IMG/VR virus record: IMGVR_UViG_3300029911_000010
Coordinates: 40,428 to 104,427 of that record
Reading direction: 5' to 3' (one strand)
Length of the DNA: 64,000 nucleotides
Source: a virus
Both the position numbers and the translations under genes were made by a program. The notes beneath the pieces are model-generated. The model searched no databases. It worked only from the letters and a program-made list of their open reading frames with translations, and had not been told where the DNA came from. This document shows, piece after piece, positions 4,614 through 55,650 of the stretch (positions within the stretch are counted from its first letter, which is position 1; each line of letters opens with the position of its first letter).

Positions 4614-5552
4614 TCAGACAAAGTCCGCACGGGCCAGCCCTGACGTGAAGCCAATCGTGCCGCCCATGGTCTCATAGGCGAAAAATTCCAACATAAAGGC
4701 TTCGCGCCTAATGTACATAGTCGTGTCTTCAAGCACATAGGACTTGCCGATGAACTTGGGATCACTGAACATGTACATCGTGTTGGTCGGGACCAGACCC
4801 TTCTTGATCGTGATCACCCAGGTCTTGCCCATGAACTCCTGGAGCGTCCAGCCGTTCTTCATGATGTCCTGAGACAGGTCGCCACCCATCTCGTTGCGGC
4901 CGAACTTGCACACATCCTTGATCGTGATGTGGTTGATGAGGATCGTGTGGACCTCCAGCGAGCTGGGGGTGTTGGGCATGATCTTCATCGCATCTTCCAG
5001 CGTATCGCGGGTGATGCCACCGGCAATCACTTCGTACTGGACGACGCCGCTGGTCGGGACAACCAGGCCGGGGCCGACGATCGCGGTGTTGATGGCGCGG
5101 ATGAATTTAGAATCTTCCTCTGCCAACATGTCCTTGATCGCGTTATCACTGAGCACCTGGCGGATGTCCATGATCCAGGTCCGCAGCTCGTCCACGTCTT
5201 TGGTGAAACGGGGCGTGACGATACGGTCGAACATGACGCGGTAGCGGGGACCGCGAATGTACAGGTTCTGCGGCAAGGTCGCGAACGCGATGCTGATGGC
5301 AGCAGGCGAATTCGGTTCCTTGTCGACCACCTTGACCGGCTTGTCGGTGTCGACCTGGCGGTCCAGCTCATCGTTGCCGATGGGCGTGGCCGGCAGGATG
5401 CGGCGGTAAAAGCCGTCTTCACGCATCTTCGTACGCGTGAAGTCGTTGATGGAATCTTCGGCCTGTTTGATCAGGCCGTTATCACGAGAGCCAAGCTGCT
5501 GAAAAAGCGTTTGATTCAGCAGCTTAGTTTCTTCGGGGGAGAGCTGAACCAT
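4614..5552 (-). CDS. major capsid protein, HK97-fold type
   Basis: 312 aa. The helical N-arm holds the INDFTRTKMRED segment (about 32-43), followed by the peripheral domain. The end, FFAYETMGG..GFTSGLARADF, is typical of large-phage HK97-fold capsid proteins. It is preceded by head genes and followed by a strong terminator, and has an unusually good SD (GGAGGA). Its 5' leader carries two GGA hairpins shared with the upstream gene. Parts of it recur in two other genes (58127-59428 and 60529-60819). Assignment rests on motif and context; no structure search was possible. Confidence 0.8.
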   Translation of the reverse strand: MVQLSPEETKLLNQTLFQQLGSRDNGLIKQAEDSINDFTRTKMREDGFYRRILPATPIGNDELDRQVDTDKPVKVVDKEPNSPAAISIAFATLPQNLYIRGPRYRVMFDRIVTPRFTKDVDELRTWIMDIRQVLSDNAIKDMLAEEDSKFIRAINTAIVGPGLVVPTSGVVQYEVIAGGITRDTLEDAMKIMPNTPSSLEVHTILINHITIKDVCKFGRNEMGGDLSQDIMKNGWTLQEFMGKTWVITIKKGLVPTNTMYMFSDPKFIGKSYVLEDTTMYIRREAFMLEFFAYETMGGTIGFTSGLARADFV

Positions 5553-5557
5553 TTTTA

Positions 5558-5599
5558 GATCCTCCGTGATCAGTTAAAAGTCACCGCCATCCTTGGCGG
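5558..5599 (-). promoter_or_regulatory. capsid-gene leader with two CsrA-type GGA hairpins
   Basis: RNA site 1 (5584-5599): CCGCC[AAGGAU]GGCGG. Site 2 (5558-5571): GAUC[ACGGAG]GAUC, where the loop is the SD. The GGA cores are about 27 nt apart, within the spacing known to allow one CsrA dimer to bridge two sites. Site 1 has the CARGGAUG core of the published CsrA SELEX consensus. Site 1 could also act as a small terminator for the gene before it. Confidence 0.7.
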
Positions 5600-5621: not shown

Positions 5622-6164
5622 TTAGGCGCTGGGGGGCAGATACACAGGCCAGAAGGCAACCGCCTCATAGCCATAACCGTTGTCGACCAATCCACGCGAC
5701 ACAACGCCGCAGATCGTGTTCGTGCCGAGCGTGCCCGGCGTGAGCATACCTGCCAGCACCGCACCGCTGTTGACCAGGGGGCTGGTCAGGTGGGTGTTGG
5801 GCGGGTAGGTCTGGGTGTCGTCGTAGTTGGTCGAAACCAACTCGTAGGCACCGACCGCGACCAGGAACATCAGCACGCCGGTCGGATTGATGGCAATGAA
5901 GACGTCCTTGGTGGTCGCAGCATCACCGCCGTCATTCTGCACGTCGGGGTCATCCGACGCCTGGAAATTGAACAGCGGCATGACCGGACTGTTACCCACG
6001 CCCAAGACCGCGTAGCCATTGGCATTCAGGGAGCAGCAAGCCCCCGGCGGCACACGAGTCTGGACGGACGGATCGAACTTGCCCTCGAAATCGAGAGCAT
6101 TGGGACGCGGCCAGCCCTTGAGGGGGTTGAGCGTCTGGGAAGTCATTTGACGAGGAGCAGCCAT
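5622..6164 (-). CDS. head decoration or second capsid-type protein (180 aa)
   Basis: 180-aa, Gly/Pro/Thr-rich, beta-type protein directly before the major capsid gene. That position and composition suit a head decoration or stabilisation protein. ATG chosen 8 nt after GGAGG; an upstream in-frame ATG has no SD. Its 5' leader is a near-copy of the capsid leader, so the two genes probably share translational control. No family recognised. Confidence 0.7.
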   Translation of the reverse strand: MAAPRQMTSQTLNPLKGWPRPNALDFEGKFDPSVQTRVPPGACCSLNANGYAVLGVGNSPVMPLFNFQASDDPDVQNDGGDAATTKDVFIAINPTGVLMFLVAVGAYELVSTNYDDTQTYPPNTHLTSPLVNSGAVLAGMLTPGTLGTNTICGVVSRGLVDNGYGYEAVAFWPVYLPPSA

Positions 6165-6169
6165 TTTAA

Positions 6170-6211
6170 GATCCTCCGTGATCAGTTGGAAACGAGCCAT
6201 CCATCCTTGGA
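6170..6211 (-). promoter_or_regulatory. duplicated capsid-type leader with GGA hairpins
   Basis: Near-copy of the capsid leader. RNA GAUC[ACGGAG]GAUC overlaps the SD (6170-6183), and CAAGGAUG in a weaker 3-bp hairpin lies upstream (6200-6211). The spacing is similar to that in the capsid leader. Confidence 0.6.
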
Positions 6212-6234: not shown

Positions 6235-6699
6235 TTATCCTTCTTTGTTGACGAGCCGTTCGAGACCAAGCCCGTTGAACAAACGACGATCGGAATCCAT
6301 CATGTTCGACGTGTGAGCGCCGACCACGACGGTGTTTGGAAGCTTTTCCAGCAACACCGAGCCGCCGTCAGATGCCTGCTTCTCGGCGGCACCCAGGCGA
6401 TCCTTGGGATGGGCGGATTTGAGCTGTGCCAGTTCGGCTTTGGCTTCCGCCAGCTTGGTAACGGCCGAACCGAGGATGGCCAGCGTTTCGTTGTGGCTGG
6501 CCAGCTTGGTGGTCATCGTGTCGGTTTGATTCTTGCCGAGAACGCCGGAATCGACCATCTGCTGGACGAGTCCGGGAATCCGCTCGGCGGCGGTCTTCTG
6601 TGCTCCGCGAATCTCCGTGACTTCGTCCACTGCACGCTTACCCAGCGCACTGGACACTTCTACGAAGCGGAGCATGTTGTTTGCGAGTTCGGGTTTCAT
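6235..6699 (-). CDS. coiled-coil virion-type protein (154 aa)
   Basis: 154 aa, mostly helical with heptad-like Leu/Ala patterning (about residues 5-110) and a short globular tail. ATG chosen 7-8 nt after GGAGG, which is presented in a hairpin loop (6704-6719). It sits between the scaffold-like gene and the head decoration-type gene, which suits a small scaffold or head-completion role. No family recognised. Confidence 0.65.
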   Translation of the reverse strand: MKPELANNMLRFVEVSSALGKRAVDEVTEIRGAQKTAAERIPGLVQQMVDSGVLGKNQTDTMTTKLASHNETLAILGSAVTKLAEAKAELAQLKSAHPKDRLGAAEKQASDGGSVLLEKLPNTVVVGAHTSNMMDSDRRLFNGLGLERLVNKEG

Positions 6700-6703
6700 T
6701 GTG

Positions 6704-6719
6704 ACAGCCTCCATGCTGC
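6704..6719 (-). promoter_or_regulatory. CsrA-type GGA hairpin at the SD
   Basis: RNA GCAGC[AUGGAG]GCUGU: five pairs (one G-U), with the SD as an ANGGAN hexaloop, 4 nt before the start codon. Confidence 0.55.
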
Positions 6720-13855: not shown

Positions 13856-14464
13856 TTAAGCTCCGGTACCGATACTTTCATGTGAGCGCACGGCGATGCG
13901 GTACGTGCCGGTTGCGGCCAGCTTGACGTACAGTTTACGGTTTACGCCGATGTTGCGGTTGGGCAGAGCGTCCTGATTTTTGAATGTGATATCCAAATTG
14001 GCGTGCAGCGGGCTCGCACCGGTGATGGTTGCAAACACCCGGTACAGTTCCTGCTCAGCCGAAGGAATCTGTACTTGGGCAGTGCCGCCAACCGCGTCGG
14101 CCGTCCACGACTGGTCAGTGACGATGTTAAAGTCATCCACGACTTCCAACACCCGATGGCTGGTGTTGTAGCCGGACGTGGGGCTGCTGGCCACGACAAC
14201 CACATCGCCTACCTTACAAGCCAGGGCGCTGTTGGGATTCATTTCAACGTAGCAATAGCCGTTGCCGTCGTTGGTGATCAGGTACACCGGCACGGCCACC
14301 AGCGGCGACGCGAACGCCCGGCTAAACAAATCGGCGGTCACGGTTCCGCCGCCGATCAGAATGATCGTGATGTAGTCCAACGTGCAGCGGCCGGGGTAAG
14401 ACAAAGCCACGATCTGATTGGAGCCAACGGTGGTCACGGAAAATTCTTTTTCGTATGGCGTCAC
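13856..14464 (-). CDS. beta-rich structural-type protein (202 aa)
   Basis: 202-aa protein of alternating hydrophobic and Thr/Ser strands, suggesting a beta-sandwich such as a head-fibre or tail protein. The start is GTG with GGAGG upstream; this GTG overlaps the stop of a broken HNH reading frame. The SD is in a hairpin loop (14470-14485). No family recognised. Confidence 0.65.
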   Translation of the reverse strand: MTPYEKEFSVTTVGSNQIVALSYPGRCTLDYITIILIGGGTVTADLFSRAFASPLVAVPVYLITNDGNGYCYVEMNPNSALACKVGDVVVVASSPTSGYNTSHRVLEVVDDFNIVTDQSWTADAVGGTAQVQIPSAEQELYRVFATITGASPLHANLDITFKNQDALPNRNIGVNRKLYVKLAATGTYRIAVRSHESIGTGA

Positions 14465-14722
14465 TTGTGCTGGCCTCCGTGCCAGTGAAAGTAAAATGCG
14501 TCGGCAGCTTCGATAAGCGGGCCGCGAATTTCAGGGTGCAAATCCTTGAGTCGTTTAGACGACTTCTGACAGTTACAGGCTCGACACAACCGGACAGCGT
14601 TACCGGGTTTCAAGCCGTTTCCTCGCGATAACGGTCGAACGTGATCGGTACAGGTCGCGGTTGCTTTGACGTATGACGGTCAAACGGCTGTACCTATCGT
14701 TGAGCAGGTCTAGTGCTTGCAT
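14461..14722 (-). pseudogene. frameshifted HNH homing-type endonuclease
   Basis: Two overlapping frames together give a small HNH enzyme. The first (ATG at 14722, with an upstream CTGGAG) encodes the LDLLNDRYSRLTVI N-terminus usual for phage HNH/AP2-type endonucleases and ends at TAA. The second frame, displaced by one base, encodes TDHVRPLSRGNG and LCRACN, the catalytic and zinc core, then runs to the next gene. No start exists for the second frame alone. A frameshift, or a sequencing error, has split the gene. Confidence 0.6.
14470..14485 (-). promoter_or_regulatory. CsrA-type GGA hairpin at the SD
   Basis: RNA CUGGC[ACGGAG]GCCAG: perfect 5-bp stem and ANGGAN hexaloop. The loop is the SD of the 202-aa gene. 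Confidence 0.7.
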
Positions 14723-14724
14723 GA

Positions 14725-17451
14725 TCAGTCTCCAGATTCTTCCATATCTGGGTCTTGTATTTCGTCGAGTCGTGGCTCGATTGTCTTCTCCTTTAGGAAT
14801 AACACTATATCTGCGAGGCTTTCAAAGGCATTTCGCAGCGAATCTTCCATCTCCGGCAAAGAATTTTTGCCATACCGCTCCTTGAAATCATCTTGATGCC
14901 AGTAAAAAAGGAAGAGCAACCGGCCCAGCTTGTCGACGGCTTTCATCAGGTCAGGCAAGTGGCGGTCCACCAGCGAGTCCTGCCGCACCGACTTGAGCAT
15001 GCCGGAGATCATCGAAGTGTCGAACACCTCTTTCTGCCCTTCCTGGCCGGCTTGCTGGGCAGTCTGCACCGCCTTCTGGTCGGGCATCAGGAATGGATCA
15101 TAGATCCGAGGATCAGTCTGCGAGCTGTCCAACCCCGACACCGGCACATGCTCGCTCTGGGGATAGATGGCGTTGACTGAATTGTAGCCGACCTGTTCAC
15201 TACCGTACTCGGGAGCCGGCATGACTGGGGCGTAGGGGCCACCGGACTGCAGATCGCCGCTGGGATAGTAGCCTGCGGTCTTTTCTCGCGGATAGCTCTT
15301 GGCGTATACGACGCGGTACTGCACCGGCGATCCGCTCATGCCGTTGCTGTGAACCTGGGCTTGCTTGAGCATCGCGGCTGCTTCGCTTTCGCCGAGCCCG
15401 TGATCGCGAATCAGACAGAACAGACCATGCCGCCACGGCATGCGCTCGCAGCCTCGCTTGATGGTCTGAATGGACACTTCGCTGTGATCGCCCCACATCT
15501 TCATGGACGCGGTCTTGGTGGTGAACAGCAGTTGAATGTCACCGATGTCGCCGGGGACGATCGGCTTGGGGTCTGAGCCGTCTGAGTCCCAACCAACCGG
15601 GCCGCCGATACTGCTCTTGCTGGGACCGTCGCCGTCGTCTTTCTTGGGCTTGGGCGGATCTTTGAGCTTCATGAACTTGAAAGTATCGGGCACGTGCAAC
15701 GTGCCGGCAGCCGCCCGCAACTTGGTGCCGGGGCGGTCGTTGATCACTAGCAAAGCATCGTAGTTGCTGACATAGCCGCCGTCGCCGGAATAGGACGAAG
15801 GCTCAGTCACCTTGGGCAAACCGCTGGCACGCCCGGCTTTCCAGTCCTCGTAGCCCTTGAAGTCGACCTTGTAACGCTTGTCCTCGTAAACCTTGCTGAC
15901 AACAAACGGGACAGTGCCCTCTCCGGCCTGGTTGATCGCCAGGTAGGTGCCGCCCTTGGACAACGTCTCGGAGTTGCCCAGACCTTTGAACCATTCGCGG
16001 AAATCGTTCTCCGACTCGATTGTTTTGGTCCACAACGACGTGCGGTGACCGTTAAGCCACGACTTCTCGCCGTCGCCCAATCGCACCACCGTACAAAAGT
16101 TCTTTTGCCCGTCGTTGGCACTGGGGGCCTGGACCACCAGCATGCGGCCGAATTCGCCGGGCTTCTCCAGCACTTCGTAGATGCCGGTCTCGTGCGGATT
16201 TGTCAGTTCCGTTCGCACTTGAGTGTTGTACGCATGGCTGATTTCGTCGCCCTTGCGCTCGTCCTTGACCAGATAGCCGTGGTGCAGGAGCTTTTCTTTA
16301 TCCTTCTCGGGAAGTTCCTTGTTGACCGTGAGGCTGACATCCGGGTCAGTGAGAATCTTGACCTTGGGCTTCTTGTCATCTTCGGGCGGCTGGGCTTCCT
16401 TAAGCAGCGAAAAATCCAGTTCACTTCGCGGCTTGTTCGGCGCAATGCGGGTTTCCCACTCGGCTCCTTTGATCAGGCAGTTGGCGGCTTCCTCGGCTGC
16501 CTGCTTGATTCGCAGGCCGACGCGATGGAAGAAATCGCTGCCATAGAACTTATCGAAGGCGACCTTGATGCCGGGGTAGCGCTGGGAGATGTTGTAGGCT
16601 CCTTCCAGCAGGCTGACATCGGTCGCCAGGAAGTCTTCCAGCGACAGTGGGACGTCGGCTAAGGCCGCCTTGACGGGGCTGGCGGGCAGCTTGCTGACGT
16701 CAACTTTGCGATCGGCCGGGGCGTTGGGCCATAGGAAGTTGGCTTGCTTGGTGGCAATGGCCGCCAGCAACGGCAGCGCCGGCACCGCCCAACCGGCCAC
16801 GTCGCGATTGCCGACGCGGATGTAATCCGGCAGCGGTGATTCCGCAGACCGACCTTCGCGGGCGGCAGCAGCTTTGGCCTGTAGTCGCTCCAGAGCACTG
16901 CCGTATTTGTTGTGCGGCGGCGGATAGCTGAGACGTTCGATGTTGGGGGCAATGCCGCCCAGCTGCCAGGTATCCTTGGCCGAGCCTTCGCCCAGGACGT
17001 GCGGCTTGCGGCTGAGGATGTAGTTGACCCAGTTTTCCTTCATGGGCACGAAGGAGTCCTGATTCTTGATATACAAAAGCTCGTGGCCCTTGAGATCACC
17101 GTTGAGGAAGAAGATCGGGGCGTACAGCCACTGCTTGCCGATCTTGAAGCCGAACACGCCGACAGCCTTGGTGTTGTCGTCGTTGCGGTCGACCAGCTGG
17201 AAGCCGACGATGTAGTCGATCAGGCGGGGAGCCTTATCCTTGAGATAGGCATACCCAAGTGAAGAGAAGGATTGCTCAAAGCCCTGCTCCTGCTCGCCGC
17301 CGATGCTCGCCCATTTGATGCCGGGACCCTTGGCCAGTCCGCGAATGTGCATGACCAGCTGCAGCGGTGTCGCGTCGCTGGTGTAAAATTGACCGGCATC
17401 CGTAGCGTGCTTGATGAACGTAATGTGCTTCCGTGCAGTTGTAATTGCCAT
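14725..17451 (-). CDS. large virion-type protein (908 aa)
   Basis: 908 aa with several apparent regions: a compact beta-rich N-terminal part (about 1-220), an Ala/Lys-rich helical region (about 230-340), a charged linker with DDKK-type stretches, a second globular part, and a C-terminal helical, acidic segment. SD GGAAAG lies close to the ATG; a weak GGA hairpin overlaps it. It sits between the polymerase module and the head genes. A structural or ejected role is likely; no family recognised, and a portal assignment is not justified. Confidence 0.65.
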   Translation of the reverse strand: MAITTARKHITFIKHATDAGQFYTSDATPLQLVMHIRGLAKGPGIKWASIGGEQEQGFEQSFSSLGYAYLKDKAPRLIDYIVGFQLVDRNDDNTKAVGVFGFKIGKQWLYAPIFFLNGDLKGHELLYIKNQDSFVPMKENWVNYILSRKPHVLGEGSAKDTWQLGGIAPNIERLSYPPPHNKYGSALERLQAKAAAAREGRSAESPLPDYIRVGNRDVAGWAVPALPLLAAIATKQANFLWPNAPADRKVDVSKLPASPVKAALADVPLSLEDFLATDVSLLEGAYNISQRYPGIKVAFDKFYGSDFFHRVGLRIKQAAEEAANCLIKGAEWETRIAPNKPRSELDFSLLKEAQPPEDDKKPKVKILTDPDVSLTVNKELPEKDKEKLLHHGYLVKDERKGDEISHAYNTQVRTELTNPHETGIYEVLEKPGEFGRMLVVQAPSANDGQKNFCTVVRLGDGEKSWLNGHRTSLWTKTIESENDFREWFKGLGNSETLSKGGTYLAINQAGEGTVPFVVSKVYEDKRYKVDFKGYEDWKAGRASGLPKVTEPSSYSGDGGYVSNYDALLVINDRPGTKLRAAAGTLHVPDTFKFMKLKDPPKPKKDDGDGPSKSSIGGPVGWDSDGSDPKPIVPGDIGDIQLLFTTKTASMKMWGDHSEVSIQTIKRGCERMPWRHGLFCLIRDHGLGESEAAAMLKQAQVHSNGMSGSPVQYRVVYAKSYPREKTAGYYPSGDLQSGGPYAPVMPAPEYGSEQVGYNSVNAIYPQSEHVPVSGLDSSQTDPRIYDPFLMPDQKAVQTAQQAGQEGQKEVFDTSMISGMLKSVRQDSLVDRHLPDLMKAVDKLGRLLFLFYWHQDDFKERYGKNSLPEMEDSLRNAFESLADIVLFLKEKTIEPRLDEIQDPDMEESGD

Positions 17452-23887: not shown

Positions 23888-24601
23888 CTACGCCGCCGGC
23901 TTGGTGTTTCGAGCATTCCAAAAGGCACGAATAGCTGACGCCCGATTGCTGACCTGACCCAGCTTCTCGGTGTCAAACGCCTGACCTTCGGCCGCATAGG
24001 AAGCGCTCTTGCCGCCGGCCAGTTGTGGGCTTGCGCCCTGCATCGGCTGAATCGGCGAGATGGCACTGCCTGGGCCTGCGCCGCCAGCTCCGCCGGCCCC
24101 GCCAGCTGGACCACCAGCCGCGCCGGTCTGTTGCTGCATGCCGAAGTTGGTCAAATCGCTCTGGGTCGCCACCATCTCACTGGCGGGGATCTGGACGCCC
24201 AGCGTGTCGGCGATCTTGGCCAGAATCTTGAGGATCTGCAACAATGTCACGTTGACGTCGATCTTGGGCTTGATCGGCTCCATGCCGCCACCGCCGCCGC
24301 CCATGCCTCCTTGCGACTGGATCAGCTGCATGACCTGCTGGACGATTGCTCCCGTGTCGGGAGGCGGAGGCGGCGGAGGTGCCCCGCCACCACCACCGCC
24401 GGAGGGATCGCCGCCGGGAGGGGGAGCAGCGCCGGGAGGAGCGCCACCACCGCCACCGGGAGGAGCGCCAGCGCCGCCACCTGCCGCTGACGGGTCCATT
24501 GCCGGATCTCCGGCCGGGACAAACGCCTGCTTAGAAAAACCAGCCACAGCCTGAATGGCCATGGCGATTGCTTCGGGATTGACAAGATGCTGGTTGCTCA
24601 T
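23888..24601 (-). CDS. Gly/Pro/Ala-rich virion-type protein (237 aa)
   Basis: 237 aa. A helical N-terminus is followed by a GGGAPPPGG low-complexity tract (about 40-95), a helical block (about 100-170), a second Gly/Ala tract and a helical tail. The layout resembles the scaffold-like protein at 6736-8064, so the two may be paralogous in design. ATG preceded by AAGGA in a hairpin loop. The alternative upstream ATG has no SD. Confidence 0.65.
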   Translation of the reverse strand: MSNQHLVNPEAIAMAIQAVAGFSKQAFVPAGDPAMDPSAAGGGAGAPPGGGGGAPPGAAPPPGGDPSGGGGGGAPPPPPPPDTGAIVQQVMQLIQSQGGMGGGGGGMEPIKPKIDVNVTLLQILKILAKIADTLGVQIPASEMVATQSDLTNFGMQQQTGAAGGPAGGAGGAGGAGPGSAISPIQPMQGASPQLAGGKSASYAAEGQAFDTEKLGQVSNRASAIRAFWNARNTKPAA

Positions 24602-24603
24602 GA

Positions 24604-24619
24604 TTCGCTTCCTTGCGAA
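24604..24619 (-). promoter_or_regulatory. CsrA-type GGA hairpin at the SD
   Basis: RNA UUCGC[AAGGAA]GCGAA: perfect 5-bp stem with an ANGGAN hexaloop that is the SD of the 237-aa gene. Confidence 0.7.
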
Positions 24620-35051: not shown

Positions 35052-38000
35052 TCACATGATACAGGAATCGCCGCTGCAAGCCAGCTCCTTGCGGACATTG
35101 GTGTGGTCGATGCCGTGCTCGTATCGCGGAAGCTTCTCCCACTCAATCTTGGGGAAGTTCGCGGTGAAGTCGGCAAACTGCTCAGGTGTCAACGGCGTGA
35201 AGGGAGCCTGGGGGTAAACGCCGCCATCAAGCGGCAGGAAAGCCAGGCCACCAACATCTTCCCAGTGAGCGTATACCCATCCGGCCACCTGCGGCCATTC
35301 GTCATCGCCGACGTAAATGGTCACGGACGGATTGTGCTCGGTGTAATGCTTCTTGAACGCCAGCCAGTCTTCCAGCTGACACATGGCGCTGCGGCGGCTC
35401 TTGGTCGCTACCACCTTGCCGCTGACATCAGTCACCAGATCGCTGACCACCATCGAGCCCTCGGGGGCTTTAAGCGGAAAGCTGAAAATAGTCGTGCCCG
35501 GATCACGGTAGCAGACTTCGTGCGGCACGCCCTGATCCTTAAGGAAGCGGCACATGGGGTTGATGTTGCCTACTTCGACGTTGCGGATCATGTGCTGAGC
35601 CAGCCAGCCGCCCATGCTCTGACCGACGCCGTAGCGGGCACCGGAGTTGCCACCAGGCTTGATGCAGGTGACAGCGTTGGACGGGTTGATGCCCAACCGC
35701 TTGGCCCACACACGGTTCTCCGACAGCGCTGTCTGCTTGAGGTGTTCCAACAGACGATGACGATCGGGATTGGAATCACGCAGCAGAGGAGAATCCAAAG
35801 CGCCCAGCAAGTCGACACCCAGCAGTCGCTCGGCTTCGCAGTTTTCCTTCCAGCGAGGCCGCAGATAACTGAAATCAGTCATGGTCGACTGAATGGTGCC
35901 GAAGATGGCAGCCAGCCGCACCTTGCGTTCCAGGATTACTCCGGTGTCCGTAGGCCGCACGATGGGAATCGACAGGTTACAGAACTGCCCATCGGGATGC
36001 AGGATGACTTCACCGCAATTCGACACCAGCATTCCGCCAGTCCAATAGGTGTGCTCGTCGGCGGCGACTGTGATGTCCCACACCGGCTGCGAACCCTCAT
36101 CCGAGATACTGATAATTTCGAAGCTGTGTTTTCTGGTCGGCTGCTCGGTAAGCGCAGCTTGATTCGCCTTTTCCTGTTTGTAGCCCTGCACGAACCCGAT
36201 CATCGTGGCGAACCTGCCCTTGCCCGTCGTGATGTTCAGATCGTAGCTCTCGCGGCATTCGTAAGTGCCGTTGTCAAAACGAACCGCTTTGGCAGCTTTG
36301 GGCGTGTAGTACGACGGGATGCCAAGACCAGACAGCATCTCCTGTACATCAGAGATTATCTTAAAAGACGTCGCCTTGAGTATGACTCGTCCCCCACACA
36401 CCGATCCATTGGCCGAATACAAGCCACGGAGAAATCCACGGATCTTTAATTCGTCGCCGTGTTTGAATCGGGCCGGTACAGATCGCAGGTAGGTATAGGG
36501 CAGCTCGGCGGCCGTTACCGTCGCATCTTCTCCGATCGCGTAAGCGTGACTGCGAATACCCGGACGGTGCGAGAGGTGACTCGGAAAGCGGTCAAGTACG
36601 TCGCCATCATTTTCCCCGACGCAGAGATAAATGAGGTTGTCAGAAGCGGCGTGGACCGAGCCGTCGCCAATCAGTAGACCATCCAGCACGTCGCGGTCGC
36701 ACGGCAGGGATTGCAATCCTAAGTAGCTGGCATCGTCCCGAGTGATGGGACCGACGCAGCGGTCGATCGTCTCAGCATCCTGTGCCTCGATCTTTTCACC
36801 GTGGCTGACAACGCGGTGGTTTTCAGTCCCGAGGAAGAATCCGGCCGTGGTCTGGTAGCGGAATACCGGCTTGACCCCGGTGTAGACCTTACGAGTCACT
36901 TCTGACCAGTGTTTACCTGTCCAGATCACGTCTCCTGTTTTCAGCTCGCCCATCGTGCGAATGCCGTCACGAGTCAATACCGTTGCATTGGCAGGCTGAC
37001 AGGGATTGGTGCCCCAGAGAACGTCAAAGAATGAATCCCCGTACTGGTCGATACGTCGCTGGGGCATCTGCCGAGCCAACCCGCCTCGGTTAAAGATCCC
37101 ACGTTCGCCGCTCTTGGATATCACCAGCGACAACCATTCAGCCAGAAAGACGTGAGCCTCGGGCTTCTCGTCGTACACCGCCGAGTTGTTGGACATGGCC
37201 CGTTGAACGTACAGCGGGTTCTCCCAGTATTTGCCGAACTTGGCTTCCCGCATCAACTGGCTTTTGAGATTGGACAGGCTGATCAGCGCTGCCCGCCGCA
37301 CCCCGCCTAGCTGCCCCACCTGGCCGATGTAGCACATCGAATCATGCACGTCGATGTCACGCAGACGTTTGCCCTCGCGAGCCCGGAAGAGACGGCGGAT
37401 GGCCGTATGCAAATCCGACAGCGGCTTGGGTCCGCTGGCCCGCCCGCCCTTGGTCATCAGCCGAGAACCCTCGGGGCGAATCTCGTGATACTTGATGTCC
37501 AGATCGTAGCCCTCGTAAAGCCGGTACATCAGATGCTTAACGCTGTCACACCAACCCTCAGTAGCGTCGGGCACCACGAACACGTCGGGTACGCTGTTAC
37601 GACGCCGGCGCTGAATACGCGGTAGCTGCTCGACGAATTCACTCTCACACGAGAAACCGCAGCCGGCCCCGGCCATGGAGATGTACAGGTTCTCGGCGAA
37701 GTAGTCGACATCCCTGATACCGGAGTAGCTGCAGTTGTAGATGCCGACGTTGCAGCGGGTCGCCGCCGGCCCGGCCATCTGCATCAACCGCATGCTGGGG
37801 GTGGCTTCCTCGTTGATGATGGAATCCCGCAGCATCTGATAGTCCCCCGCTTCCAATGTGGGCATGCCGTGCTTGCGCAGGTGATACTGGATGAAACCCA
37901 TCACGCGGTCGGTAGATTCGGGATAAGTCTCACGCCGCTTGAAGTCGTCGTTGAAGCGAGCGTACTTGTCGTAGTGCTGGAATCGCTGCAGATCGGTGGT

Positions 38001-38405
38001 GCCCCTGGTTTCGCACAGCCGGGTTTCCTCGCGGATCGCCTCGACCGCCTCGTCGGTGACGCCGGCCAGCGCCGACGCCTCGCGGATCTTACGCCGCTCA
38101 TCACGGAAGAGAACGTACTTGCGTCCCGCGTCGGCTTCGCCAACGGCAAACAACGCCTCTTCCACGAAATTCTGAATTGCCTCGACAGCAATAGTTCCTC
38201 CGATAGATGCGATCAACCGTTCGACACGATCGGTTACCTTCGCGGCCAGCGCCCTCGTGTCGTCATCGAGCGCTCGACCACAATCGTTGACCAGACAAAG
38301 CATGACCACCTGGGTGATCTTACTGCGTTGGTATGTGACCAAATTGCCGGAACGTTTGCGTACCTGTAAAGCTGCAGGCACAACAGTAGAAATGCCAGTC
38401 GACAT
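35052..38405 (-). CDS. nrdJ: adenosylcobalamin-dependent ribonucleoside-triphosphate reductase, with intein
   Basis: 1117 aa. An N-terminal ATP-cone-like region (about 10-95, RKRSGNLVTYQRSKI) suggests allosteric control. The barrel follows: YNCSYSGI, the NPCGE active-site loop interrupted by an intein (469-796), CIKPGGNSGARYG, and a C-terminal redox pair, CSGDSC, spaced CxxxxC as in monomeric class II enzymes of Lactobacillus type. The reaction makes deoxyribonucleotides for phage DNA using B12. ATG at 38405 chosen because GGAGA lies 6 nt upstream; the ATG 51 nt earlier has no SD. The gene is bounded by an AT-rich region upstream and a strong terminator downstream, so probably its own operon. 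Confidence 0.9.
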   Translation of the reverse strand: MSTGISTVVPAALQVRKRSGNLVTYQRSKITQVVMLCLVNDCGRALDDDTRALAAKVTDRVERLIASIGGTIAVEAIQNFVEEALFAVGEADAGRKYVLFRDERRKIREASALAGVTDEAVEAIREETRLCETRGTTDLQRFQHYDKYARFNDDFKRRETYPESTDRVMGFIQYHLRKHGMPTLEAGDYQMLRDSIINEEATPSMRLMQMAGPAATRCNVGIYNCSYSGIRDVDYFAENLYISMAGAGCGFSCESEFVEQLPRIQRRRRNSVPDVFVVPDATEGWCDSVKHLMYRLYEGYDLDIKYHEIRPEGSRLMTKGGRASGPKPLSDLHTAIRRLFRAREGKRLRDIDVHDSMCYIGQVGQLGGVRRAALISLSNLKSQLMREAKFGKYWENPLYVQRAMSNNSAVYDEKPEAHVFLAEWLSLVISKSGERGIFNRGGLARQMPQRRIDQYGDSFFDVLWGTNPCQPANATVLTRDGIRTMGELKTGDVIWTGKHWSEVTRKVYTGVKPVFRYQTTAGFFLGTENHRVVSHGEKIEAQDAETIDRCVGPITRDDASYLGLQSLPCDRDVLDGLLIGDGSVHAASDNLIYLCVGENDGDVLDRFPSHLSHRPGIRSHAYAIGEDATVTAAELPYTYLRSVPARFKHGDELKIRGFLRGLYSANGSVCGGRVILKATSFKIISDVQEMLSGLGIPSYYTPKAAKAVRFDNGTYECRESYDLNITTGKGRFATMIGFVQGYKQEKANQAALTEQPTRKHSFEIISISDEGSQPVWDITVAADEHTYWTGGMLVSNCGEVILHPDGQFCNLSIPIVRPTDTGVILERKVRLAAIFGTIQSTMTDFSYLRPRWKENCEAERLLGVDLLGALDSPLLRDSNPDRHRLLEHLKQTALSENRVWAKRLGINPSNAVTCIKPGGNSGARYGVGQSMGGWLAQHMIRNVEVGNINPMCRFLKDQGVPHEVCYRDPGTTIFSFPLKAPEGSMVVSDLVTDVSGKVVATKSRRSAMCQLEDWLAFKKHYTEHNPSVTIYVGDDEWPQVAGWVYAHWEDVGGLAFLPLDGGVYPQAPFTPLTPEQFADFTANFPKIEWEKLPRYEHGIDHTNVRKELACSGDSCIM
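36018..37001 (-). mobile_element. intein in the reductase NPCGE loop, with LAGLIDADG endonuclease
   Basis: 328-residue intein inserted before the catalytic-loop Cys (residues 469-796 from the chosen start). Begins CQPANATVLTRDG. LAGLIDADG-like motifs are LLIGDGS and GLYSANGS. Ends GGMLVSN before extein Cys. Penultimate residue Ser instead of His. Removal restores GTNPCGEVIL, a well-known reductase intein site. Confidence 0.92.
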
Positions 38406-38464
38406 GGACTGTCTCCAAAACGTCAAACTATATGTGCTCCCGCCAAACAGAAGCATCGTTTGCC

Positions 38465-38901: not shown

Positions 38902-41532
38902 TTAGATGTCCTCGTGGCGAGCTAAAAAAGAGGGGGCACGCAACGCCCCGCTGGCTAGTTGTTCCTGGGCACGAACGCGGGCGACACGGCCAATCCAGTC
39001 ATCTGGATTAGCTGCCATGTCAGCCAGAGTCGCGTCGTCAAAGCCAGTGCCGACCTTGCCGACCGGTTCACCACCAGGCTGCAAGCTGTACTGAAATCCG
39101 CCGACCGTGCTGGCCCGCCGGCCTTCGCCAGGGAAAAAACTGTGAATGTGAACATCGTGGTCCTCGGTCAGCTTGCTCTTCATCGGCTTGCCGTGCGTCG
39201 GATGGATCACCACACCTTCACGGGTCAGGGGATTCTTGCCACCGGCGATGTCCTGCCACATCTGCATCGCCTTGCCCGGCTCAGCCTCCTGGCTCAGGTG
39301 GAATCGCCCCGGAGCTGCTGCTTCAAGAAGCGGCAGAATCTCGCCCAGCATAGCACGACGCTCAGCGTAAGACGTTTGATCAAAGTCAACCGGATGCTTC
39401 CCGACTTGCTGGACGTCAAAGAGGGCGTTTCGCAGTTGTATTTTCCGATCTCTTTGCTGGGCAATGGCATTCGCGGGAGTGGCATTGAGGATGCCACCGA
39501 GTTCGGACGGGTGTATGGCTGTTTGCACAGTGTCGGATAGTAATGGGTCTCCCGGATTATCTGCCCCAGCTTCTCCGCCACCGGGCTTGTCGCCTTGTCT
39601 AACGCCGTAAAGTTCACCCCTGAGGACTGATCCAACCAGATTCGGCGGGGTTTGTATTGCTGGTCTGCCATGAAAGAACCTCTCCGTGTGTAAAATGGGC
39701 CGGCCTGTCTGCTTGCTCTGTCGGTAACTGGTCAGCTCCACGCCATCCTTGAGCAACTTGATCAAACTAGAAGCCCCGTCAATCTTAGCCTGCACGCTGG
39801 CAGCCGGATCTAACTTGGACAACGTCTGCTCGATCTGGTCGGCGGGGATCTTGGTGTAGTGAATCTTCTGATACGGCAGTGACTGCGACGGCGTGGTGTT
39901 GATCATCAGCCAATCACGGTCACGCTGGCCGTGCCACTTGGTCAGCATGAAGCGCTCGGGGTGCTTCTTGTCCATCCGCGTGAAGTGAATCTCACCGGGG
40001 GACACCTTGGTCAACATGATCTGGCCGCTGTCGTGTTTCTTAACAGAGCCGCCGCCGTAGCGCCCCAGGGGAATGTCGCCCTCGAAGTCCTTGTAGCCGT
40101 AGCGATGCACGGGCTGCTGCACCGCCAGGATGCGCTGGCCCGGCTCTGGAAGCTCATTGCGGGTCGCCCACGAGTACAAGCCGGTATCCGGGGTGCCGAA
40201 GCGAAAGTCGTAATGCGGGCCAGCCTTCTGCGCCAGGTGATGCTGGATAACCAAGTCGTGGTTCTGACCCGGCTGCAAGGCGTCCCAGTCGCCAAAGTTC
40301 TGCCGGCTGGGCAGGCCGGGAGCGGCGTCGGCTTTCTTCTCGTGCTTTTCTTCGTCGTCCGGCTCGTCTTCCTCCAGCTTGACGTCAGCCTCACGTCGCA
40401 TGATATCCGGCACGGGCGTCTTGGCCGGTACGTAGGGCTTGAATCCCAGCGACGTGTAGAACGCTGCTAACTCTGACGTGCCCAGCGCCTTGTCTTTGTA
40501 CGGGCCGACGTGCAGCTCCAGCGGCTTGTGGCCGTAGGCGTCCAGAACGTGTTCCATCAGCTTGCGAGCCAGTCCCTTTTCACGATGACGCGGCGAAACG
40601 TACAAACCCCTGATCCATCCGGCGTCGTGGCCGGGGACGTCCATTACAGCGACACCGCCGATCTCCCGTCCGTTGCGGGTGATGTCAAACCGGTGCTCGG
40701 GTCCGTGCTGAGCGAAGTTGTCCCGGTAGTCTCCGAAGCGATATTCTTCCGCAAAAGTTGATTTGCTTTTGTCAGCAGCCACTTTCTGGTTTCCGGCGTC
40801 GGCGAAATCTTCAAGGTCGAAAAGATCTGATCCGCCATCGGTTCCAGCTGGTCCACACTGCCTGCCATATCCGCTATCACCTGAGGGATGTACATCTGCA
40901 GCCTTCTTCCTGTATTTGGCGAACATGCCGTCTTCGATTTCACGCGTCGTGTCGGCGTGCTCCAGCCACCATTTGAACTGCGGCATCGTCAGTGAGTAGA
41001 TCGAACCCAGCCCCTTCCAGCCGTCCTCGTAGTTCTCCAAGTACAACCGGCGGGCCTGGTCCTCGTTGATAGCGCCGAAGATAACCTTGTGCTCGTCGAA
41101 GTCTTTGGTGCCGGGGTCAACCTGGTTGACGACGAACACCAGCTCGCAATGCGGGTGCTGATCGCCGATGAACACGTCGACATGATCCTTGTCCCGCCCC
41201 TCAGTGCCCAGGATGTAGCCATAGTGGCTTTTCATCTCCTGAGACCATTCCTTGCCGTCTCGGCTCTTGCCGCTGCGGGTGGAGCCCTTGGGATTTTCAA
41301 TGGAGATGGTCAGCCCGTGAATGTTGAGCTTGCCCTTGGCGTAGTTGCCCGCCTCACGCTGAGCTTCGGTAGGCTCGGTGTCAGTCTTGGCAGCGGCCCG
41401 GTCGATGCGATCCAGGTAATCCGCCAGCTCGCGATTGGCGTGCTGGGCCTGGTCCACCGTGGTATCGGGCACAACCGTTACGCGAATAATACGATGTGAA
41501 ACGCTCAGAATGCTGGTCGGCGAATCTTCCAT
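38902..41532 (-). CDS. polyvalent protein: pyrophosphatase-like, GNAT, LigD-type 3'-phosphoesterase and ATP-dependent DNA ligase
   Basis: 876 aa. (1) About 55-200: InPase-like domain of phage polyvalent proteins (HYGYILGTEGRDKDHVDVF; FDEHKVIFG). (2) About 250-380: GNAT acetyltransferase (GLYVSPRHREKGLARKL). (3) About 405-545: LigD phosphoesterase-type domain (HYDFRFGTPD; YKDFEGDIPLGRYGGG) with the His/Tyr features of that family. (4) About 560-870: ATP-dependent ligase with KIDG nucleotidylation motif near 583, GELYG, EGVVIHP, and a C-terminal OB fold (VGKVGTGFDD). Together these could process 3' ends, seal nicks, acetylate a target and hydrolyse a phosphate substrate. Start has a poor SD, so it may be short by some residues. 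Acts on DNA in the cytoplasm or as a virion-borne protein. Confidence 0.85.
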   Translation of the reverse strand: MEDSPTSILSVSHRIIRVTVVPDTTVDQAQHANRELADYLDRIDRAAAKTDTEPTEAQREAGNYAKGKLNIHGLTISIENPKGSTRSGKSRDGKEWSQEMKSHYGYILGTEGRDKDHVDVFIGDQHPHCELVFVVNQVDPGTKDFDEHKVIFGAINEDQARRLYLENYEDGWKGLGSIYSLTMPQFKWWLEHADTTREIEDGMFAKYRKKAADVHPSGDSGYGRQCGPAGTDGGSDLFDLEDFADAGNQKVAADKSKSTFAEEYRFGDYRDNFAQHGPEHRFDITRNGREIGGVAVMDVPGHDAGWIRGLYVSPRHREKGLARKLMEHVLDAYGHKPLELHVGPYKDKALGTSELAAFYTSLGFKPYVPAKTPVPDIMRREADVKLEEDEPDDEEKHEKKADAAPGLPSRQNFGDWDALQPGQNHDLVIQHHLAQKAGPHYDFRFGTPDTGLYSWATRNELPEPGQRILAVQQPVHRYGYKDFEGDIPLGRYGGGSVKKHDSGQIMLTKVSPGEIHFTRMDKKHPERFMLTKWHGQRDRDWLMINTTPSQSLPYQKIHYTKIPADQIEQTLSKLDPAASVQAKIDGASSLIKLLKDGVELTSYRQSKQTGRPILHTERFFHGRPAIQTPPNLVGSVLRGELYGVRQGDKPGGGEAGADNPGDPLLSDTVQTAIHPSELGGILNATPANAIAQQRDRKIQLRNALFDVQQVGKHPVDFDQTSYAERRAMLGEILPLLEAAAPGRFHLSQEAEPGKAMQMWQDIAGGKNPLTREGVVIHPTHGKPMKSKLTEDHDVHIHSFFPGEGRRASTVGGFQYSLQPGGEPVGKVGTGFDDATLADMAANPDDWIGRVARVRAQEQLASGALRAPSFLARHEDI

Positions 41533-41553: not shown

Positions 41554-41581
41554 TTGACTTCACCTGTTCGGGTGATATCAT
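41554..41581 (+). promoter_or_regulatory. promoter of the csrA gene
   Basis: Plus strand: TTGACT, 16-nt spacer, TATCAT, about 45 bp before the csrA start. A 5-bp inverted repeat (TCACC..GGTGA) between the boxes could be an operator. Divergent from the polyvalent gene. Confidence 0.55.
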
Positions 41582-41609: not shown

Positions 41610-41625
41610 ATCGAAAGGAGTCGAT
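41610..41625 (+). promoter_or_regulatory. GGA hairpin at the csrA SD (predicted autoregulatory site)
   Basis: RNA AUCGA[AAGGAG]UCGAU: 5-bp stem, ANGGAN hexaloop equal to the SD, one nt before the start codon. E. coli csrA is autoregulated through comparable leader sites. Confidence 0.65.
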
Positions 41626-41626
41626 C

Positions 41627-42055
41627 ATGCTAGTTCTCAGTCGCAAGCGTGACCAGGCCGTCCGAATCGGAAAAGACATTCGCGTCATGGTCACCGACAT
41701 TCGCGGTGACAAAGTTCGTATCGGTACGAACGCTCCACCGTGCTACAGAGTGTACCGCAAAGAGATCTACGATGGAATCCTCAGGGAAATCGCAGCCGGC
41801 GGCAGCCCTCCGGAAGAGCGGATCAAGTCCGGCGCTGGCCAATTGGTGCTAAGCCGCCAGCGTGACGAAAAGCTGTACGTCATCGATCCGGCCGACTGGA
41901 ATAAGCCCCTGGTCAGCATCACGGTAGTGGATATTCGCGGCGATAAGATACGTCTCGGCTTTGAGGCAGACAGATCGCTTGACGTGGACCGCGAGGAGGT
42001 CTATAAGTTGAAATCAGCCGGAGCCGATGCGAAAGCAGGCCAAACGGCGGTCTGA
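41627..42055 (+). CDS. csrA: tandem (two-domain) CsrA/RsmA translational regulator
   Basis: 142 aa, two CsrA units in one chain. Unit 1 (about 1-58) starts MLVLSRKRDQAVRIG, with RGDKVRIG and YRKEIYDGI. Unit 2 (about 72-130) starts LVLSRQRDEKLYVI, with IRGDKIRLGF and DREEVYKL. CsrA normally works as a domain-swapped homodimer whose two sites each use N-terminal LxLxRR-type and C-terminal RxE residues; both units keep these. A single chain should act as a pseudo-dimer with two non-identical sites. The only convincing gene on this strand. Its leader has the GGA hairpin and a terminator follows. Confidence 0.92.
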   Translation: MLVLSRKRDQAVRIGKDIRVMVTDIRGDKVRIGTNAPPCYRVYRKEIYDGILREIAAGGSPPEERIKSGAGQLVLSRQRDEKLYVIDPADWNKPLVSITVVDIRGDKIRLGFEADRSLDVDREEVYKLKSAGADAKAGQTAV

Positions 42056-42080: not shown

Positions 42081-42107
42081 CACCCTGGCGCTTACAACGC
42101 CAGGGTG
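42081..42107 (+). terminator. csrA terminator
   Basis: Perfect 10-bp stem CACCCTGGCG/CGCCAGGGTG with a 7-nt loop, then GTTTGTTT. About 25 bp past the csrA stop. Confidence 0.85.
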
Positions 42108-42205
42108 GTTTGTTTATGTAGACAGCTGCACAACCGTAAAGCCTCTGTCAATCCATTCTCCTTCGAGTCTTTCAAGGGGCTGAAATGGTGAAAAATCCCC
42201 GCCGG

Positions 42206-42757
42206 TCATGCAGCCGTCGTATCCTTGGCTGTATCCGTACGCCCCAGCACGCCCCTCTTCCTTATCGCAACTGTCACATGAAAATCGTATTTCCCCTCGT
42301 TAGGCAAACTGCTTAAGCCGTAGCTGCGCCGCAACTCCTGCAACTCCGGTGAATGCACCCGCAGTATCCAGCACTTAGCCACATCAGGCCAGCCAGCCGG
42401 CTCCAGCTCCATTAGACGGCCGATGGTGTAGGTGAACGTCTTGCCGCGATCGTTGAGCAGCTTGTCAGTCCCGCCGATGATGGAGATATCCTCGGGGCGG
42501 AACACAGTGATGTGGGCGTCCAGCTTGCCTTCGTGCAGCGGCAGCTCGATGCCGGTTTCGTCCATGGCATCAAAGATGCCGCGAACCATGGCATTGGGCA
42601 CCGACAGCAGGCCGTAGGGCTTATCGCGGTGCTGGGCGACGTACAACCGGCCTGACAGGTTGTAGGCCGGCACCTGGTCATTGGCAATCTTCTCGCCCAG
42701 GCGGTACGCCTGGTTGTGCCAGTAACTGAAATTGTCGATGGGGCTCAGAACGCTCAT
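42206..42757 (-). CDS. 2H phosphoesterase-like protein (183 aa)
   Basis: 183 aa with two H-x-T motifs, DAHITVF (about 82) and FHVTVA (about 160), the signature of the 2H phosphoesterase fold (cyclic phosphodiesterases, RNA ligase-like enzymes, and the anti-CBASS Acb1 family). The motif spacing and length suit the family. The start codon overlaps the preceding stop (ATGA). The substrate cannot be told from sequence: cyclic oligonucleotides, tRNA splicing products or others are possible. Confidence 0.65.
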   Translation of the reverse strand: MSVLSPIDNFSYWHNQAYRLGEKIANDQVPAYNLSGRLYVAQHRDKPYGLLSVPNAMVRGIFDAMDETGIELPLHEGKLDAHITVFRPEDISIIGGTDKLLNDRGKTFTYTIGRLMELEPAGWPDVAKCWILRVHSPELQELRRSYGLSSLPNEGKYDFHVTVAIRKRGVLGRTDTAKDTTAA

Positions 42758-42961: not shown

Positions 42962-43351
42962 TCACTTCTGATCCATCGATAAGCGAGGATCGGGTCTGTC
43001 AGCCGACTGAACCTGACGAACCATGCGCTGACGAGTTTGCTGCACGTCAGGATTGCCGGCAATGGCAACCAGCTGGGCCGCTACCTCCGGGGGCAGCATC
43101 TGGTTAGCCATGTTGACCATGTTGGTGTTGTGTTCCTGCATGGCGGCTTGCAGCTGCTCGATGGACTTGCCGTGAGCATCGACCACGGGATTACCCCGTA
43201 TCGCCTGGATGACCATGACAGCCACCTGACCGATGATCCATATCAAGATGGCGACGTTGGAAAGCGACCACTCACTGCCGCCAGTAGACGGAGGCAGCTG
43301 GCCGAGAACGACGAAGTATCCGAGGGGAATAAGAGAAAGAAGGAAAGCCAT
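42962..43351 (-). CDS. membrane-anchored protein, holin-like candidate (129 aa)
   Basis: 129 aa. Two N-terminal hydrophobic segments (about 2-20 and 32-52) then a soluble Gln/Met-rich helical tail. ATG chosen from AAAGGAG, which is in a hairpin loop (43352-43367). Paired with the 52-aa membrane protein just downstream. Could be a holin or a spanin-like component. No endolysin was recognised nearby. Confidence 0.65.
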   Translation of the reverse strand: MAFLLSLIPLGYFVVLGQLPPSTGGSEWSLSNVAILIWIIGQVAVMVIQAIRGNPVVDAHGKSIEQLQAAMQEHNTNMVNMANQMLPPEVAAQLVAIAGNPDVQQTRQRMVRQVQSADRPDPRLSMDQK

Positions 43352-43367
43352 GGTCACTCCTTTGACC
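43352..43367 (-). promoter_or_regulatory. CsrA-type GGA hairpin at the SD
   Basis: RNA GGUCA[AAGGAG]UGACC: perfect 5-bp stem, ANGGAN hexaloop, directly before the ATG of the membrane protein. Confidence 0.7.
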
Positions 43368-54650: not shown

Positions 54651-55083
54651 ACGACACGGCGATTTGACTCGGTAGTTGATTATCGCCGGTCCGACGTATT
54701 ACTGCTTGCGCATGCAACCCGAACTTCGGAATGGTCATAGCACTCAGTTTTACTTCGACGGGAAACGTATGCCCCTTGCGGTGTCGTCCGCGCAACGGAA
54801 GACCACTGCCCATTTCACGCACACGCGGCTCGTTCATGTAGCCGTCACGCAAAAGCGGATGACGCTTTTTAACGTCGTCGGGAATGAGAATCTCAATCTT
54901 CTCGCCGATAACTTCCGAGCGGGCATAACCGAACAAAAATTCGGCCTGGGCATTGAACACGACGATTTGTCCGTCGTCAGCGATGACCACAATGGCGTCG
55001 GCGCTGGCCTCCAATGCCTTAAGGTAAATCTGTTCGAGCGCTTCGACGGAATAGTACAGCTTGTTTCTTTGTTCATTGTCCAT
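54616..55083 (-). CDS. PAS-domain protein (155 aa)
   Basis: 155 aa, one PAS domain (about 20-125): SADAIVVIADDGQIVVFN, FLFGYARSEVIG, GHTFPVEVKLSAM. The IPDDVKKRHP segment places a His where FixL-type heme PAS domains have the proximal heme ligand, although many non-heme PAS domains also have it. No kinase or output domain follows, so it would act as a partner protein. GAGG before the ATG; overlaps the preceding gene by 11 bp. Sensing role is inference. Confidence 0.8.
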   Translation of the reverse strand: MDNEQRNKLYYSVEALEQIYLKALEASADAIVVIADDGQIVVFNAQAEFLFGYARSEVIGEKIEILIPDDVKKRHPLLRDGYMNEPRVREMGSGLPLRGRHRKGHTFPVEVKLSAMTIPKFGLHAQAVIRRTGDNQLPSQIAVSCPVIVEKPSGE

Positions 55084-55555
55084 ATGCCGCCTCTTGTCCG
55101 TGTGCAGCCTCAGCGTGACCTTCCGAAGCCACGGCGATGGCGGCTTCGATACATGATCCGGCTATCAACCCGTAAGGCACGCAAACGTTCTCCAGAATCC
55201 ACGGACCGAAACGATGGTCTATCTCAAGAAACAATTCTTTGTTAGTAAAACTATGTCCAACCGTCCGGTAGAACTCACGCAGCTCATCGGCCTTGTCGCG
55301 GTACCACTGTTTCACTTCTTCGGTCAGTTGTAACGGTGACTCGTACTTACCCATGTGTCGCTGTAACACTTCGCTCTGGGCACGGCGCATCATGTAGTCC
55401 AGCATTTTATCGATTCGCTTATCGTGCTGGTGGACTAACGTCTCCAACACTCCGAACTTAGCCGCTTGCCGTACTAGAAACAATATAACGAGTACGAATC
55501 CAGCGAAAACCGAACCAGCCATACCGATAATTGTCAGACCGACTTCTATCGTCAT
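55073..55555 (-). CDS. single-pass membrane protein (160 aa)
   Basis: 160 aa. One N-terminal membrane helix (about 6-28, MAGSVFAGFVLVILFLV), then a charged soluble domain with Lys/Arg helices. AAAGGAG 6 nt before the chosen ATG. Co-transcribed with the PAS gene by overlap, so it may be its membrane partner. Confidence 0.65.
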   Translation of the reverse strand: MTIEVGLTIIGMAGSVFAGFVLVILFLVRQAAKFGVLETLVHQHDKRIDKMLDYMMRRAQSEVLQRHMGKYESPLQLTEEVKQWYRDKADELREFYRTVGHSFTNKELFLEIDHRFGPWILENVCVPYGLIAGSCIEAAIAVASEGHAEAAHGQEAAYGQ

Positions 55556-55595
55556 TTCTGTACTCCTTTGCTTGCTGCTCGTCATTTTTGCTGCT

Positions 55596-55650
55596 CGTCC
55601 GTGAGCGGCACAGATCGATATTACTCCGCAGAAGGTTTATCGACCAGCGA
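55596..55650 (-). promoter_or_regulatory. promoter-like leader element, copy B
   Basis: Minus strand TGGTCG, 17-nt spacer, TAATAT, then CTGTGCCGCTCACGG and the SD of the membrane gene. Closely matches copy A over about 50 bp. Confidence 0.55.

Follow-up and report, generated by a model that had tools for sequence, protein, structure and literature searches.

A predicted CsrA-type operator at the start of a phage csrA gene belongs to a genome-wide set of hexaloop hairpins

The window analysed here is a 64,000-nucleotide stretch of DNA, positions 40428–104427 of a 104,427-base IMG/VR virus record (termed G000). It contains a csrA gene whose product has two fused CsrA domains. The product matches the Pfam CsrA family (PF02599) over two stretches (E = 3e-32, 110.8 bits against a cut-off of 27), and the domains scored separately reach 69.4 and 45.7 bits. 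Domain 1 (MLVLSR...VYRKE) and domain 2 (QLVLSR...DVDREE) both display the RNA-contact residues, L4 in strand 1 and the R44 region in strand 5, with the arginine equivalent to R44 present in VYRKE as well as in DVDREE. A 19-row alignment shows no variation at L4 and R44 of domain 1; the second domain has an insertion after its first strand.

An AlphaFold model of the tandem protein (pLDDT 76.6, pTM 0.66) gives each half a strand order like that of CsrA. In a whole-model structure comparison made with a pseudo-dimer in mind, the halves individually match CsrA/RsmE chains with an rmsd of about 2 and Z values of 4–5, no higher than unrelated beta folds can give. CsrA is usually a homodimer of chains of about 60 residues with two RNA sites, and a chain that holds two domains could make up such a dimer by itself, as a single-chain pseudo-dimer. 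The nearest cellular relatives of the protein are from Phycisphaerae MAGs. The csrA-bearing viral loci checked include a single further tandem csrA, that of IMGVR_UViG_3300020202_000001 (G010, 224 kb), here called the sister phage. Family phages G052 (L273, L296), G056, G059, G002 and G003 have two unfused CsrA-family genes in place of a tandem one.

A CyVA-1 RNA (RF02965, 47 bits; window 42131–42208, minus strand) lies directly 3′ of a 2H-phosphoesterase open reading frame and is convergent with csrA. The motif GAAGGAGA in the conserved loop of this RNA makes it a possible CsrA ligand or sponge. The CyVA-1 RNA was not found in the sister-phage pieces searched, and a search for relatives via the neighbouring 2H-phosphoesterase protein returned none. 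Between csrA and CyVA-1 is a strong inverted repeat, read by eye, at 42081–42107 (CACCCTGGCG-CTTACAA-CGCCAGGGTG), which is likely a bidirectional terminator. On the other side of csrA, an 876-aa fusion (38902–41532, minus strand) joins an inorganic-pyrophosphatase-like part, a GNAT acetyltransferase, a LigD 3′-phosphoesterase and an ATP-dependent DNA-ligase-like region. A ribonucleotide-reductase-like open reading frame (35052–38456, minus strand) has an apparent intein-like insertion (CQPANATVLTRDGIRTMGELKTGDVIWTG ... TYWTGGMLVSNC), as read from the translation.

The start of csrA is preceded by the hairpin ATCGA-AAGGAG-TCGAT, in which all five pairs are Watson–Crick and the hexaloop is the Shine–Dalgarno (SD) sequence. 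One base (C41626) separates the hairpin from the ATG at 41627. An earlier note on this DNA had described the stem, the loop and the spacing in these terms, and its description is accurate. The closing pair is A-U; C-G, which is preferred and not strictly required, is absent. The leader holds a single GGA (41617), the next GGA being at 41669, inside the open reading frame, and from a promoter-like element (Table) the leader would be about 40 nt long. The stability of the hairpin is modest (−2.7 kcal/mol alone, −3.2 with short flanks). It is not the minimum-free-energy fold in longer RNA, where other folds win and z-scores are unfavourable. CsrA sites do not require stability in the unbound state, and folding energy proved uninformative as a test of the hairpin, neither supporting nor excluding it. 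The exact 16-mer occurs once in the window, even allowing three mismatches, and in 6 records among 2.9 million viral contigs in IMG/VR, one of these being the leader of the sister tandem csrA. As an enrichment test this count shows no general enrichment, and only the sister-csrA link is informative.

Table. csrA, its predicted control elements and further putative operator hairpins in the window
Feature	Position	Strand	Basis
csrA, 142 aa, two fused CsrA domains (about residues 1–71 and 72–141)	41627..42055	+	Pfam match, AlphaFold model
Predicted CsrA-type operator of csrA	41610..41625	+	5-bp stem, hexaloop AAGGAG = Shine–Dalgarno; kept in sister phage and two more
Promoter-like TTGACT-16-TATCAT, TG before −10	41554..41581	+	one found vs 0.6 expected by chance
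Putative operator GATC-ACGGAG-GATC, major head protein gene (ORF 4614–5552)	5558..5571	-	scan, phrog_2522, covariation
Putative operator GATC-ACGGAG-GATC, ORF 5622–6164 (adjoins head gene)	6170..6183	-	scan
Putative operator CAGC-ATGGAG-GCTG, ORF 6235–6699	6705..6718	-	scan, ortholog pair
Putative operator CTGGC-ACGGAG-GCCAG, ORF 13856–14464 (GTG start)	14470..14485	-	scan, ortholog pair
Putative operator CTTTTC-ACGGAC-GGAAAG (one G-U), ORF 14725–17451; sister phage TTCC-ACGGAT-GGAA	17454..17471	-	
Putative operator TTCGC-AAGGAA-GCGAA, ORF 23888–24601	24604..24619	-	scan
Putative operator GGTCA-AAGGAG-TGACC, directly before ATG of ORF 42962–43351	43352..43367	-	scan
Putative operator GCTC-ACGGAC-GAGC, ORF 55073–55585 (weaker case)	55593..55606	-	scan

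The hairpin is conserved at csrA in related phages. The sister phage is collinear with the window, with about 65–80% nucleotide identity in blocks. The two csrA leaders share an identical block of 22 nt, ATCGAAAGGAGTCGATCATGCT; upstream of it the leaders have diverged and downstream there are scattered mismatches. The csrA-leader hairpin is present in the four phages that are closest by major head protein (G000, G010, G051 and G052). The stems are atcga/tcgat in G000 and G010, tcga/tcga in G051 and tgga/tcca in G052, which constitutes a compensatory change. Beyond this closest clade the hairpin is absent from most csrA leaders, including those of more distant family csrA genes, and it was sought in csrA leaders of unrelated phages and found absent. 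With the hairpin restricted in this way, csrA autoregulation looks like a trait of the clade of four phages.

Hairpins of the same shape are found at many other genes of these phages. A scan covered every ANGGAN site followed by a start codon and an open reading frame of at least 50 aa, with Watson–Crick stems and an expectation obtained by permuting the 3′ flanks. Stems of at least 4 bp occur at 14 of 167 sites in G000 (0.92 expected) and at 33 of 290 in the sister phage (2.1 expected); when 5 bp or more are required, the counts are 7 vs 0.22 and 14 vs 0.59, respectively. The csrA site is among the 7, the chance being about 0.13% per site with 3′ flanks permuted. Twelve other phage records, eleven with a single-domain csrA and one (G004) without csrA, have 0–4 sites against 0.4–1.7 expected. 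The earlier note saw one site and made no mention of the tandem nature of the protein. The csrA hairpin is real, but csrA is only one of at least 14 genes with such a hairpin, and autoregulation is part of the story.

Annotated targets include the major head protein and a tail-sheath-like protein (a weak Pfam match, below the cut-off), and most others have no family match. In the sister phage, a tubulin/FtsZ-like gene (L130:4869–6137; Pfam Tubulin, E = 1.9e-14) has its ribosome binding site in a GAAG-AAGGAG-CTTC hairpin. The operator targets suggest control of virion production, and possibly of its timing. As to csrA, the CsrA site that the earlier note had predicted over the SD of the gene itself is well supported by the anatomy of the hairpin, by its conservation with compensatory change in four phages and by the genome-wide set of the same shape. 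The segment 41610–41625 is most likely a CsrA/RsmE-type translational operator by which csrA would limit its own synthesis, within a phage-wide operator set, and the operator is probably autoregulatory.

The distribution of csrA and of operators over the phage family bears on which CsrA would be the ligand. Of the 41 family records of at least 150 kb, 30 have a CsrA match that passes the Pfam cut-off. The two tandem-CsrA phages show the strongest operator enrichment, followed by csrA-bearing relatives (G051, 16 sites vs 1.9 expected; G052, 13 vs 1.9; G085, 10 vs 0.95), with lower enrichment in csrA-bearing G107 (6 vs 1.1). No csrA was found in family phages G108 and G061, which have 6 sites vs 0.92 expected and 5 vs 1.07, and csrA-bearing G002 shows no enrichment (1 vs 0.98). 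A strict correlation between the presence of csrA and that of operators thus does not hold; the two are not one to one.

This leads to the question of whether the operators serve host CsrA. The phage might tap into the host Csr system, or its abundant leaders might titrate host CsrA, while the phage csrA mainly manipulates host mRNAs. The few operators in some family phages without a detected csrA are in keeping with this. A host with CsrA is plausible given the Phycisphaerae relatives, and phage csrA has generally been proposed to be a host manipulator (PMC11879866). However, the biggest operator sets are in the tandem-CsrA phages and the next in csrA-bearing relatives, an operator sits on the csrA gene itself, and most large family genomes carry csrA; the csrA-less records may be incomplete. 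A primary role for host CsrA is a tentative reading that deserves to be kept in mind but is the less probable one. From the pattern of enrichment over the family, phage CsrA is likely the main ligand of the operators, with host CsrA a possible one.

The geometry of the loop is specific. In a table of loop lengths 3–9 in all registers (28 length/register combinations), a clear excess is present only for the hexaloop with GGA at positions 3–5. Observed/expected counts are 15/2.2 in G000, 47/14.4 in the sister phage and 138/22.9 in 78 family loci, and there is no excess in the 12 control records (17/21.6). The octaloop on the same axis is also enriched and represents the same hairpin with the closing pair open. 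On sequence grounds, the enriched geometry is that of a CsrA/RsmE site. The closing pair is C-G in 10 of 14 hairpins in G000 and 25 of 33 in the sister phage, and A-U in 2 and 6.

Base-pair changes provide further evidence for the stems. Eight reciprocal-best ortholog pairs between G000 and the sister phage have the hairpin in both members, and 13 of 34 shared base pairs are changed on both sides, a proportion that is biased on its own because the pairs were picked for having hairpins. The leaders of the major head gene (ORF 4614–5552, phrog_2522) were analysed with the SD picked without regard to pairing; a search with this gene turned up about 80 related large phages. Among the 60 unique leaders, 30 form a stem of 4 bp or longer, whereas 6.9 are expected and the maximum in 1000 permutations is 14. 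Covariation was assessed in 40 of these leaders, chosen by eye with non-A-N-GGAG loops and a few near-duplicates excluded, which somewhat favours structure. Pairs are formed in 81.5% of cells vs 61.3% after shuffling. Changes on both sides number 40 vs 12.8 ± 3.7, and the covariation score is 0.475 vs 0.149, neither value being reached in 500 shuffles. Relatedness inflates the shuffle contrast somewhat, but slid structures, which share the same relatedness, score 0.08–0.20. Neither the closing C-G nor the first A of the loop varies in the alignment (C-ANGGAG-G), the constancy of the A being partly built in because leaders without an A-N-GGAG loop were excluded.

It might be asked whether the stems merely hold the SD open in a loop to help ribosomes, or are targets of a different phage repressor of the RegA type, with CsrA irrelevant. 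The SD does lie in the loop and not in the stem, and CsrA binding here is a prediction. But other loop sizes and registers would show the SD equally well, yet only the one hexaloop register is enriched, and the major-head leaders keep a loop A and a closing C-G for which the SD has no need. A Csr protein and the operators co-occur in the same phages. These explanations are considered unlikely. That a short palindrome around a purine-rich SD arose by chance and was read as a CsrA site by suggestion is hardly credible: the folding energy of the lone csrA hairpin is unremarkable, but chance is excluded for the set, and is very unlikely for csrA, given the permutation results, the retention of the hairpin in diverged leaders and the covariation.

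The predicted recognition of the hairpins by a CsrA protein has counterparts in known systems. Rsm proteins prefer AnGGA in a loop (PMC9928087), and RsmZ stem-loop 2 (CCCCG-AAGGAU-CGGGG), a positive control for RsmA binding (PMC4066749), is identical in layout to the csrA hairpin. RsmE/RsmA hairpins, e.g. the hcnA SD and the RsmZ stem-loops (PDB 2jpp, 2mfc), share with the phage hairpins the ANGGAN hexaloop, a short stem that is usually C-G closed and a GGA that is the SD; they differ in that the phage csrA hairpin is A-U closed and the sites are on phage mRNAs, many of them of virion genes. E. coli CsrA binds four sites in its own csrA leader, one of which overlaps the SD (PMC7652899). The earlier note had proposed that CsrA acts here as in E. 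coli. This is apt in that a predicted CsrA site overlaps the csrA SD and repression of initiation is expected, but the leader has one GGA and not four sites, and the gene is a phage gene for a tandem protein, not the host's, and part of a phage operator set.

The finding of csrA-family genes on mobile elements is not new. csrA genes have been reported on phages and plasmids (PMC7366521); gp28 of phage PTXU04 is another such gene (PMC11879866). Translation in the host is rewired by the plasmid protein RsmQ (PMC9928087), and plaques become smaller when a phage csrA homologue is knocked down (PMC11879866). In these reports effects on host mRNAs are discussed or shown, or the phage role is left open, whereas here the operators are on the phage's own mRNAs. 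In the literature searched, which was covered in part, no description of CsrA operators on the mRNAs of a phage itself was found, and priority is uncertain. Phage T4 RegA is a phage repressor that acts on many phage mRNAs, its own included, near the start codon. The same is predicted for CsrA here, although RegA is an unrelated protein and its sites are not known to be GGA hexaloops of fixed geometry.

A mechanism can be proposed, which we infer from the sequences. A CsrA protein would bind the AAGGAG hexaloop and block ribosome access, i.e. it would repress and not activate; this protein is most likely the two-domain one of the phage and not that of the host. It would be produced early, and csrA and the other operator-bearing genes would be repressed by coverage of the SD. 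Repression would be lifted, with a shift from early to late expression, once there is more target mRNA than CsrA or once a sponge RNA is made. Operators with differing stems may set the level or timing of translation of individual phage mRNAs. Given the single leader GGA here vs the four E. coli sites, the tandem protein may bridge two mRNAs, or use a second site within the open reading frame. Among known types of Csr sponge RNA (CsrB, CsrC, RsmX/Y/Z and TwoAYGGAY), none attains its Rfam gathering score in the window, elsewhere in G000 or in 100 kb of the sister phage.

On balance, the evidence leans towards the view that in this family of large phages CsrA, tandem in two members, acts as a master translational regulator of the phage's own head, tail and other mRNAs and of csrA via hexaloop operators. 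This would be a phage-internal Csr regulon and not only a means of host manipulation. The tandem CsrA lends itself as a natural test case for two fused halves working together as a single dimer. The operators provide a concrete, testable list of candidate direct phage mRNA targets of CsrA, and they suggest that in this widespread family of 150–230 kb phages virion genes are timed at the post-transcriptional level.
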